The notes under the pieces: model-generated
What the model saw: the letters and a program-made list of their open reading frames with translations, nothing else
Told to the model about the DNA's origin: nothing
Database searches by the model: none
Part shown: positions 29,247 through 54,631 of the stretch, piece by piece
How the letters are laid out: every line of letters starts with the position of its first letter
Position numbering within the stretch: position 1 is the first letter of the stretch
Origin: Hyphomicrobiales bacterium
GTDB lineage: Bacteria; Pseudomonadota; Alphaproteobacteria; Rhizobiales; Xanthobacteraceae
NCBI GenBank assembly: GCA_013911975.1
Contig: JACESF010000013.1
Span: forward strand, 1 to 64,000
Length of the DNA stretch: 64,000 nucleotides
Direction: 5' to 3'
Position numbers and translations under genes: made by a program

Positions 29247-30557
29247 TCAGGAATCGAGGCTTTCGGTTTCCACGATCTCGATGCCGAAGCCCGCCAGACC
29301 CACATAGGTGCGGGCCTTGGAGGCCAGCAGGCGGATGGAGACCACGCCGAGGTCGCGCAGGATCTGGGCGCCGAGGCCCACCTCGCGCCAGTGGCGGTCG
29401 CGCTCGGCCTCGCTGGCGCTCTTGTCCGACTGGCCCATGGCGGTGGCGGGGACGCCCGCCGTGCCGTCGCGCAGATAGACCAGCACGCCGCGGCCTTCCG
29501 CATTGATGCGCTCCAGCGCCTTCTGCACGGTCTTGGCGCCGCCGAAGGCATCGGCGATGGGATCGGCCCGGTGCAGGCGCACCAGCACGTTCTCCCCGTC
29601 GCCGATCCGGCCGTGCACGACGGCGAGATGGTTCACGCTCTCGAACGGGGTGATGAAGGAATAGCCCTTCATCTCGCCGATGGCGGTGGGCACCGGGAAT
29701 TCGGCCGAGCGGGACACCAGCTTCTCGCGCGCCTGGCGATAGGCGATGAGGTCCGCCACCGAGATGCGGTGCAGGTTGTGGGTGTCCGCGAAGGCGGTGA
29801 CCTGCGGCCCGCGCTGGACGGTGCCGTCGTCATTCACGAGTTCCGCGATCACGCCCACGGGGGGCAGCCCGGCGAGGCGGCACAGGTCCACGGCCGCCTC
29901 GGTATGGCCGGAGCGGATGAGCACGCCGCCTTCCTTGGCGATGAGCGGGAAGATGTGGCCCGGCCGCACGAAGTCCGCCGCGCCCATGTTGGGATTGGCG
30001 AGCGCGCGCACCGTGTTGGTCCGCTCCTCGGCCGAGATGCCGGTGGTGGTGCCGTGCCGCACGTCCACGGACACGGTGAAGGCGGTGCCCATGGGCGCGT
30101 CGTTGTTGGCCACCATGGGCTCCAGCCGCAGGCGCTTGGCCTCGGACGGGGGCAGGGGCGTGCACACGATGCCGGACGTGTGGCGGATGACGAAGGCCAT
30201 CTTCTCGGGCGTCGCGAGGGAGGCGGCGAGGATCAGGTCGCCTTCATTCTCGCGGTCGTCGTCGTCGGTGACGACCACGATCTCGCCGCGGGCGATGGCT
30301 TCGATGGCGGTTTGGACGCGGGACTGGGCGCTGTCGGTCACGGGAACACCTCGAATGATCGGCGGGGCGAGGCCGAGAAGGTCATTGGGCGTGACGGCGT
30401 GGCCGGTGGCCTGCGCGATGCGCTCCGCGGTCTCGCGGGAGACCCAGGCGCGAGCATCGTTGCAAAGGGCCGTCACGCTGGCGGGGGACAGGCCCACCTG
30501 CCGGGCGAAGGCGCTGCGCGTCGTGCCAGTGCTGGAGAGCCACTCCGTCAGTTTCAT
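29247..30557 (-). CDS. ribBX: HTH-RibBX fusion: DNA-binding domain plus 3,4-dihydroxy-2-butanone-4-phosphate synthase
   Basis: The 436-residue frame has three parts. Residues 1-70 are a Cro/C1-like HTH (FARQVGLSPASVTALCND, then VTPNDLLGL). Residues about 75-275 are DHBP synthase, the riboflavin enzyme acting on ribulose 5-phosphate, with DDDDRENEGDL, HTSGIVC, and SGHTEAAVDLC. Residues about 285-430 resemble GTP cyclohydrolase II but lack its zinc cysteines, so that domain is probably inactive, as in RibBX proteins. An internal GTG at 30341, preceded by GAGGTG at five bases, would give a 364-residue RibBX without the HTH, close to the usual length. Two palindromes lie before the outer ATG. Confidence 0.85.
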   Translation of the reverse strand: MKLTEWLSSTGTTRSAFARQVGLSPASVTALCNDARAWVSRETAERIAQATGHAVTPNDLLGLAPPIIRGVPVTDSAQSRVQTAIEAIARGEIVVVTDDDDRENEGDLILAASLATPEKMAFVIRHTSGIVCTPLPPSEAKRLRLEPMVANNDAPMGTAFTVSVDVRHGTTTGISAEERTNTVRALANPNMGAADFVRPGHIFPLIAKEGGVLIRSGHTEAAVDLCRLAGLPPVGVIAELVNDDGTVQRGPQVTAFADTHNLHRISVADLIAYRQAREKLVSRSAEFPVPTAIGEMKGYSFITPFESVNHLAVVHGRIGDGENVLVRLHRADPIADAFGGAKTVQKALERINAEGRGVLVYLRDGTAGVPATAMGQSDKSASEAERDRHWREVGLGAQILRDLGVVSIRLLASKARTYVGLAGFGIEIVETESLDS

Positions 30558-30582
30558 GGGAGCGACGCTAGCACAGGGGTTT

Positions 30583-30599
30583 TTTCATTGATACCGAAA
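30583..30599. promoter_or_regulatory. Palindromic operator, proximal site
   Basis: TTTCATTGATACCGAAA resembles the stronger site 27 bp away and shares its TTTC...GAAA arms and GAT centre. It lies 25 bp before the outer ATG of the HTH-RibBX gene, in an AT-rich pocket. Confidence 0.6.
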
Positions 30600-30609
30600 A
30601 CAGGATCGT

Positions 30610-30626
30610 TTTCAGTGATACTGAAA
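30610..30626. promoter_or_regulatory. Palindromic operator, distal site
   Basis: TTTCAGTGATACTGAAA is a perfect seven-base inverted repeat around GAT. It touches the stop of aroC and sits 27 bp (centre to centre) from the second copy, a spacing of about two and a half helical turns. A likely binder is the HTH of the adjacent fusion. Confidence 0.65.
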
Positions 30627-31739
30627 TCACCGTTCCGCCGGCCACTGGGGCGACGTGCCCACCTGCCCGCGATGGCGCAGGAAATGGTCCGCCAGCACGC
30701 ACCAGAGCATGGCTTCGCCCACCGGAACGGCCCGGATGCCCACGCACGGGTCATGCCGTCCCTTGGTGAAGATCTCGGTCTCGGCGCCGAACTTGTCCAC
30801 GGTCTGGCGCGGGGTGAGGATGGAGGAGGTGGGCTTCACCGCGAACCGCGCCACGATGGGCGCGCCGGTGGAGATGCCGCCCAGGATGCCGCCCGCATGG
30901 TTGGACATGAAGGCCGGGCGGCCCTCGTTGCCGCGCCGCATCTCGTCGGCATTCTGCTCGCCGGTGAGGCGGGCGGCGTTGAAGCCCTCGCCGATCTCCA
31001 CGGCCTTCACCGCGTTGATGCCCATGAGGGCGCCCGCGATGTCCGCGTCCAGCTTGGCATAGAGCGGCGCCCCAAGGCCCGGCGGCACGCCTTCGGCCAC
31101 CAGCTCGATGAGCGCGCCCACGGAGGAGCCCGCCTTGCGGATGCCGTCCAGATAGTCGGTCCAGACGGGCACCGTGCCGGGGTCGGGGCAGAAGAAGGGA
31201 TTGTTGCCCACCTCGTTCCAGTCCCAGCGGTCCCGGTCGATGGCGATCTCGCCGATCTGCACCAAAGCGCCGCGCACCGTCACGCCGGGCAGGACCTTGG
31301 CCGCCAGGGCGCCGGCCGCGACGCGGGTCGCGGTCTCGCGCGCCGAGGAGCGCCCGCCGCCGCGATGGTCGCGGATGCCGTACTTGGCGTCATAGGCATA
31401 GTCTGCATGGCCCGGCCGGTAGCTGCCGGCGATCTCGGCATAGTCCTTGGAGCGCTGGTCCACATTCTCGATGAGCATCGCCACCGGCGTCCCGGTCGTC
31501 ACGAGCCCGCCATCGGGATGGGGCAAGGTGCCGGACAGGATGCGCACCTCGTCCGGTTCCCGCCGCTGCGTGGTGAAGCGGGACTGGCCGGGACGGCGCC
31601 GGTCGAGCGCGGCCTGGATCTCCTCCTGGGAGACGCGCAGGCCGGGCGGGCATCCGTCCACCACGCAGCCGATGGCCGGGCCATGGCTTTCCCCGAACGT
31701 GGTCACACGGAACAGATGTCCAAAGGTGTTGAACGACAT
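30627..31739 (-). CDS. aroC: Chorismate synthase
   Basis: The 370-residue FMN-dependent enzyme makes chorismate from 5-enolpyruvylshikimate 3-phosphate, the last step of the shikimate pathway. The motifs [43 protein letters not shown], and [18 protein letters not shown] are all present. Its stop abuts the operator pair of the HTH-RibBX gene downstream. The divergent neighbour is the CNNM-type protein gene. Confidence 0.96.
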
Positions 31740-35754: not shown

Positions 35755-35831
35755 CGGAGTGTAGCGCAGTCTGGTAGCGCACCACGTTCGGGACGTGGGG
35801 GTCGCAGGTTCAAATCCTGCCACTCCGACCA
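35755..35831 (+). tRNA. tRNA-Pro (anticodon CGG)
   Basis: The 77-nt molecule folds as a cloverleaf. The acceptor is CGGAGTG/CACTCCG, the anticodon stem CCACG/CGTGG encloses TTCGGGA, which gives anticodon CGG, and the T-arm is GCAGG-TTCAAAT-CCTGC. The 3' CCA is encoded. Confidence 0.96.
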
Positions 35832-52213: not shown

Positions 52214-53926
<1,713 letters not shown>

Positions 53927-53935
53927 GGTGGGCAG

Positions 53936-54631
53936 ATGACGAATTGTTTCAACGATCTCATCAAAAATATAAATAAAGATTTATTAGATAAATCTGGTTC
54001 TGTATTTTATACAGGGGCGGATGCATTTTCCAAAAAATCAAGATTTTATATTTTAGGGTCTAATCCCGGAGGGTGTCCGGAAAAATTGAGTGAGTTTACT
54101 ATTAGAAAAAATATCTCTGAATACTATGATAAGAGATCTTATTCTGCGTTTGAAGATGAGTCTTGGAATTCGTCCGATGTTGGGGGTTCTCCAGTGCAGC
54201 GTCGTGTGCGTTATCTTCTTAGTAAAATAGAAATTTCCCCTAAATCTGTTCCTGCAAGTAATGTGATTTTTGTTAGATCGAAAAGGGAGAAAGACCTATC
54301 TTCGGAAAGGGAATATTTTTTGGATATGTGCTGGCCTTTTCATAAGGCCGTTATTGATCGTTTGGAGGTTGAGATAGTTATCTGTATGGGGCGTGTTGCT
54401 GGGCGTTGGGTAAGAACTATGCTTGGGGCTAATGATTATGTTGGATGTTTTCGCGAAAAGAATCTCCGAGGGTGGAAAAGCGAAATATACGCAAATTCGG
54501 CTGGTGTTTATGTATTGGGCTTGACGCATCCGAGCGTTGCAGATTGGTGTTCGGCTCCGGCAGATCCTTCGCCGCTATTGAGGCGGTTGTACGATAAGCT
54601 TGAGATGTCCCCCAAAGAGGTGTGTTTGTGA
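53936..54631 (+). CDS. AT-rich uracil-DNA glycosylase-like protein
   Basis: The 231-residue protein has the two hallmark regions of the UDG-like superfamily: YILGSNPGG near residue 38 and LGLTHPSVADW near residue 200. They resemble the GxxPG and HPS motifs of bacterial uracil-DNA glycosylases. The middle part is not one I recognise. Composition is about 40% GC by eye, against well over 65% for every neighbour, and it uses TTA, ATA and AGA codons that are rare here. The ATG lies nine bases after the ureC stop, after GAGGTGG. These facts point to recent transfer into the operon. The substrate is unknown. Confidence 0.75.
   Translation: MTNCFNDLIKNINKDLLDKSGSVFYTGADAFSKKSRFYILGSNPGGCPEKLSEFTIRKNISEYYDKRSYSAFEDESWNSSDVGGSPVQRRVRYLLSKIEISPKSVPASNVIFVRSKREKDLSSEREYFLDMCWPFHKAVIDRLEVEIVICMGRVAGRWVRTMLGANDYVGCFREKNLRGWKSEIYANSAGVYVLGLTHPSVADWCSAPADPSPLLRRLYDKLEMSPKEVCL

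Follow-up and report, generated by a model that had tools for sequence, protein, structure and literature searches.

A conserved pair of palindromes upstream of HTH-ribBX as probable operators for autogenous control of riboflavin synthesis in Rhizobiales

Two 17-bp palindromes between aroC and an HTH-ribBX gene of a Hyphomicrobiales bacterium are, very likely, operators of the helix-turn-helix (HTH) domain fused to RibBX, with which the protein would repress its own gene and, in Stappiaceae-type relatives, also ribN. Since the palindromes are almost certainly docking sites of the fused HTH, this enzyme of riboflavin synthesis probably switches off its own gene. The evidence, all of it computational, consists of the conservation of the sites, their link to the HTH fusion, their overlap with a promoter placed from relatives, and the covariation of protein and DNA. 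Throughout, “the window” is the whole stretch of 64,000 nucleotides that we analysed.

The palindrome pair and the HTH-ribBX gene

The features of the locus, in window coordinates, are the following.

30627..31739, minus strand: aroC (chorismate synthase), directly upstream of HTH-ribBX and on the same strand; its stop codon adjoins the distal operator
30610..30626, no strand assigned: putative distal operator, perfect palindrome TTTCAGTGATACTGAAA, centre 61 bp before the ribBX ATG
30583..30599, no strand assigned: putative proximal operator, imperfect palindrome TTTCATTGATACCGAAA (TTTCGGTATCAATGAAA on the coding strand), centre 34 bp before the ATG, in the expected -35 region
30565..30570, minus strand: predicted -10 element TAGCGT, 7 nt before the ATG, placed by comparison with relatives
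29247..30557, minus strand: HTH-ribBX gene, 436 aa, with an XRE-type HTH, DHBP synthase (RibB) and a degenerate GTP cyclohydrolase II domain (X), from Pfam
30369..30557, minus strand: HTH domain, residues 1-63, from AlphaFold2 helices, Foldseek neighbours and covariation at residue 30
29739..30311, minus strand: RibB (DHBP synthase) domain, residues 83-273, from Pfam and conserved blocks
29265..29711, minus strand: X domain (GTP cyclohydrolase II-like, without zinc ligands), residues 283-431, from Pfam; candidate sensor

The initial annotation described a palindrome with perfect seven-base arms and a weaker copy 27 bp away, in an AT-rich pocket just before the HTH gene, and all of this holds. 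The arms of TTTCAGTGATACTGAAA are perfect over 7 bp around a 3-bp spacer. The weaker copy, TTTCATTGATACCGAAA, is identical to TTTCAGTGATACTGAAA at 15 of 17 positions, forms 5 of the 7 arm pairs, and matches the core of the motif at 12 of 14 positions. The 27 bp are measured from centre to centre, and 10 bp separate the two sites. Both sit in the 69 bp that separate the stop of aroC (30627) from the ATG of HTH-ribBX (30557), and the GC content over 30580-30629 is 32% versus 68.6% for the whole window, where just 0.2% of 50-bp stretches are that low.

On its own, a perfect 7-3-7 palindrome is no rarity: the window has 21 of them, nearly all GC-rich and unrelated to the operators. Two related copies are rare: 100 dinucleotide shuffles yield no match with 3 mismatches or fewer. 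Outside the pair, the 4.39-Mb genome has no site within 2 mismatches of the motif. It has three sites with 3 mismatches, which is about the control level of two, and we do not count these as extra copies of the motif. We take conservation to be the decisive evidence that the palindromes go beyond chance.

One reading frame of 436 aa joins the HTH to a pathway enzyme domain, an arrangement kept across orthologues. Pfam finds PF13443 (a weak match, 23.2 bits for a cut-off of 22), PF00926 (2.7e-83) and PF00925 (5.5e-31). The DHBP synthase domain is intact, and its blocks DDDDRENEGDL and GHTEAAVDLC are invariant or nearly so among orthologues. The protein is a RibBX because its X domain has none of the zinc cysteines, with RLHRADPIADAFGGAKTVQ at that place, while the catalytic RibA that the genome encodes separately (G000:C39:65258-65731, 6e-48) has them. 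Whole-protein fold matches are RibA2 of M. tuberculosis and RibBX 6mnz. AlphaFold2 models five helices in residues 1-61 of the HTH (3-10, 14-21, 25-33, 41-50 and 57-61); helix 3, with the sequence PASVTALCN, is predicted to be the recognition helix. By Foldseek, the HTH lies near YdaS, Cro and HigA in complex with DNA, with a best E of 0.05 at a probability of 1.00. A sequence search of the PDB with the HTH has a designed TALE as its top match (3e-6), which is uninformative.

Conservation of the motif and its link to the fusion

HTH-RibBX is present in 47 of the 298 sampled genomes of the order and is rare outside it. Among named organisms, the closest relative is Aquabacter cavernae, at 96% across the first 103 residues. 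Our conservation sample consists of 80 public HTH-RibBX loci and the window, 81 upstream regions, compared over the 14 positions of the motif core. Conservation upstream of orthologues had been proposed as a check on the sites, and they pass it: a core match of at least 11/14 is found in 81/81 upstream regions, 33 of them perfect, when shuffles lead one to expect 0.4 in 81. The matches fall at two conserved positions, with centres approximately 32 and 60 bp before the ATG. Both sites are present at 9/14 or better in 58 of the 81 loci, and 66/81 orthologues have at least 11/14 at the distal position (-50 to -70). Which site is the stronger differs by lineage: the proximal one in Xanthobacter, the distal one in Bosea and Roseibium. 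An ESHG-type aroC reading frame is upstream in 53/81 loci, at distances that vary widely.

The motif goes with the fusion. Within the window’s own family, all 11 HTH-bearing genes have it (12-14 matches) and none of the 17 RibBA genes without the HTH does (best 10 matches; L022 is counted among these). Across 42 HTH genomes there are 39 sites within 1 mismatch, and their coordinates place 34 at ribBX, 3 at ribN and 2 elsewhere. As a separate observation, a divergent HTH-RibBX (L205 in genome G306; 47% over 103 residues, recognition region GVSQGRVSQLIAG) has a motif match never above 8/14 within 200 bp upstream, and may possibly have an operator of another type.

Overlap of the proximal operator with a predicted promoter

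The pattern TTGN3-N16-18-TAN3T, ending 6-7 nt before the ATG, is found in 41/81 orthologues versus 4/4050 random windows, and the relaxed form TTG-N19-21-TA in 70/81 upstream regions versus 36/3980. Because of the place of this promoter pattern, and because only 2/81 upstream regions have a Shine-Dalgarno-like sequence, the ribBX mRNA is probably leaderless, with its start at or beside the AUG. In most other lineages, the proximal copy reads TTTCATTG..., and its TTG doubles as the predicted -35 box; we interpret TTTCATTG as a palindrome arm bent to provide that TTG. Neither the window nor A. cavernae has this TTG, and in both the palindrome is nearer the consensus; the -10 TAGCGT is retained in the window. 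A scan for consensus promoters and terminators over 30400-30800 gives no match. The placement of the window’s promoter rests on relatives, since its own -35 is poor and only the -10 half is recognisable. With that placement, the palindromic proximal operator appears to overlap the -35 box of the gene’s own promoter.

Repression is likelier than activation because the operator covers the -35, or elsewhere sits in or downstream of the inferred promoter, as does the single operator of the Pseudovibrio ribBX and of some ribN loci (judged by eye). That HTH-RibBX binds the palindromes to activate, or both to activate and to repress, with a class I contact from the distal site at about -60 and a proximal site that tunes it, we consider improbable. 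The distal centre, some 60 bp before the probably leaderless start, would suit such a contact, and so would Bosea, with its perfect distal and degenerate proximal copy. Against it are the covering of the -35 by the proximal site, the proximal position of the strong copy in Xanthobacter, and the lone operators just described for Pseudovibrio and ribN; moreover, it would be unusual for a biosynthetic enzyme to activate its own gene.

Covariation of the putative operator and the predicted recognition helix

For the covariation analysis, sites were picked by a score blind to positions 4 and 14. Residue 30 of the HTH and position 4 of the half-site change together. An A, S or G at residue 30 goes with C at position 4 (TTTCAGT) in 170/174 half-sites, and Q or H goes with T, A or G (TTTTAGT-like) in 87/100. 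Relatives with Q for A at residue 30 have variant palindromes, such as TTTTAGT-N3-ACTAAAA and TTTAAGT-N3-ACTTAAA, in which both arms are altered. In a distant family, the palindrome is at -33 and its half-sites have changed in step (TTTAAGT/ACTTAAA). The exceptions are six loci (L134, L236, L238, L240, L241 and L245) that have Q30 yet retain some C half-sites; these may be intermediates, or may depend on other residues.

On a tree made from RibB-X only, residue 30 changes 7 times, and on 6 of these occasions the operator base changes on that branch too (its changes number 11 in all), a coincidence never reached in 20,000 random placements; the tree is a FastTree topology without support values, the changes are placed by parsimony, and the effective sample is about 24 sequences. 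When the 436 columns are ranked by MI/entropy, the top four are residues 26, 23, 30 and 24, in or beside helix 3. Because operator and recognition-helix sequences co-vary across the tree, the palindromes are tied to the fused HTH.

It is thus very unlikely that the palindromes serve a separately encoded flavin or iron regulator, the HTH fusion being a coincidence. Palindromes of 17 bp are read by many XRE-type and other regulators, but here the presence of the motif tracks the HTH fusion, its sequence tracks residue 30, and the near-perfect sites in HTH genomes are almost all at ribBX or ribN. We give hardly any credence to an RNA role for the sites, be it terminator, attenuator or hairpin in the gap after aroC. 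The genes on either side point the same way and a read-through transcript could fold here, but the scan of 30400-30800 has no terminator-like site, Rfam has no match at this locus or at 20 orthologous ones, a leaderless start leaves both sites upstream of +1, aroC is upstream in only part of the loci while the sites are in all, and covariation with an HTH residue is not what an RNA would predict.

Probable operator copies at the ribN riboswitch

In three HTH genomes (G176, G330 and G346; loci L177, L178 and L179) an extra motif copy is found just 5’ of an FMN riboswitch that is followed by an EamA-type transporter. We identify this transporter as ribN-like, from the riboswitch and the family; riboswitch-controlled ribN has been described in alphaproteobacteria (PMC4418817). 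A family-wide pattern search finds motif, riboswitch and transporter in 14/81 genomes, which with G176 makes 15 loci, and the arrangement belongs to Stappiaceae-type genomes. At 14 of the 15 loci, reading frames or Pfam show where the transporter starts; at L189 the reported ORF lies in a different frame. None of the 93 riboswitch-bearing genomes of the order without the HTH fusion has the motif within approximately 60 bp of the riboswitch. At L177, L178 and L179, one ribN-like gene is apparently under both DNA-level and riboswitch control. As the motif also precedes the ribN riboswitch in Stappiaceae-type relatives, control would extend to uptake.

We find no FMN riboswitch (RF00050) in the window, in 20 HTH-ribBX loci or, with strict filters, in the genome that the window comes from. 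In the order-level sample, 7/47 HTH genomes have one versus 93/251 others, a comparison confounded by shared ancestry, and for that reason we do not rely on an anticorrelation of the HTH fusion and the riboswitch. Where HTH genomes have the riboswitch, it stands before a ribH-like gene (4) or ribN (3). The ribH-like (lumazine synthase) cases are L180-L183 (G102, G147, G258 and G354), and they are without an operator.

A proposed mechanism of autogenous repression

We propose that HTH-RibBX would form a dimer through its DHBP synthase domain, as dimerisation in the family suggests, and that one recognition helix per half-site would read the 17-bp palindrome. The bound protein would then block RNA polymerase at its own, probably leaderless, promoter, and in this way limit the ribulose-5-phosphate branch of riboflavin synthesis by autogenous feedback. 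Stappiaceae-type relatives have this operator also at the promoter of the FMN-riboswitch-controlled ribN-type transporter gene, which may bring uptake under such control too. A flavin-related signal would be sensed by the RibB or X domain, and we hypothesise that a flavin acts on X.

The initial annotation had taken autoregulation by the HTH as the simplest reading. The motif at 81/81 loci and the covariation with the recognition helix favour it, and it is not the whole story, as one clade also has the motif before ribN. Its further suggestion, cooperative binding to the two sites, draws no support from the half-integral spacing of 26-29 bp (about 2.5-2.8 turns); at several loci just one site is good, and the stronger site varies by lineage.

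A more tentative reading, which we consider less likely than not, is that the dead GTP cyclohydrolase II (X) domain is a sensor of a flavin or an intermediate that controls the HTH, and that HTH-RibBX founds an alphaproteobacterial family of flavin-sensing enzyme-repressors. If true, lineages mostly without FMN riboswitches at ribB would control both B2 synthesis and its uptake at the level of DNA. The fusion itself also suggests a role, that of sensor, for the long-puzzling X domain of RibBX.

Relation to known systems

The control best known for bacterial riboflavin genes is at the level of RNA, by FMN riboswitches. To our knowledge, DNA-binding regulators of the riboflavin pathway are few, the archaeal RbkR being one. 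Our best reading is that HTH-RibBX is a riboflavin counterpart of NadR and RbkR, an enzyme-repressor that feeds back on B2 synthesis and, in some lineages, on uptake. Here a regulator is fused to the enzyme that opens one branch of the pathway, and its operator and recognition helix evolve together over many genera, which would make a clean case of autogenous control and of co-evolution between operator and repressor.

NadR of Enterobacterales combines an HTH with NMN adenylyltransferase and ribosylnicotinamide kinase, and represses synthesis and transport genes (PMC12421817). The two proteins share an N-terminal HTH fused to a cofactor-biosynthesis enzyme; they differ in cofactor (flavin, not NAD) and enzyme fold, and NadR represses other genes in trans whereas here the main target would be the protein’s own gene. 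RbkR, an HTH with a CTP-dependent riboflavin kinase, is listed as both gene regulator and enzyme (PMC8305020, PMID 28073944). It too joins an HTH to a riboflavin-pathway enzyme, but it is archaeal, with a different enzyme and pathway step, and homology of the enzyme parts is not expected.

RibBX is described as DHBP synthase with an inactive GTP cyclohydrolase II-like domain (Brutinel et al. 2013 and Nouwen et al. 2021, cited in PMC10012899). For Shewanella RibBX, an X domain devoid of cyclohydrolase activity is reported to regulate the RibB part all the same, through an unknown mechanism (PMC10012899). Our protein resembles RibBX (crystal structure 6mnz) in having RibB and an X without zinc ligands, next to a separate catalytic RibA in the genome, and differs in the added N-terminal XRE-type HTH (about 63 residues) and in an operator of its own. 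In the papers that we consulted, we found no mention of RibBX binding to DNA.

With the XRE/Cro-type repressors HigA, YdaS, SinR and Cro, the HTH shares a five-helix lambda-repressor-like domain, a palindromic operator and proposed autoregulation. Those are small dedicated DNA-binding proteins or domains, whereas the partner of the HTH here is a metabolic enzyme. The FMN riboswitch, which controls riboflavin synthesis and ribN genes and in Stappiaceae-type genomes stands beside the operator at ribN, is unlike HTH-RibBX an RNA sensor. We found no report of an HTH-RibBX regulator in the open-access literature, which is weak evidence of absence, and one survey of XRE motifs (PMC12565409) does not mention the motif.

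Other features of the window

A further AT-rich perfect 7-3-7 palindrome, GATTTATTAGATAAATC, is found at 53978-53994 and is unrelated in sequence to the operators. Rfam reports RF02514 (5’ ureB sRNA) at 52371-52656 on the minus strand, with 49.2 bits for a cut-off of 40, which is probably sequence similarity over a urease gene. A tRNA gene is at 35755-35828 on the plus strand.
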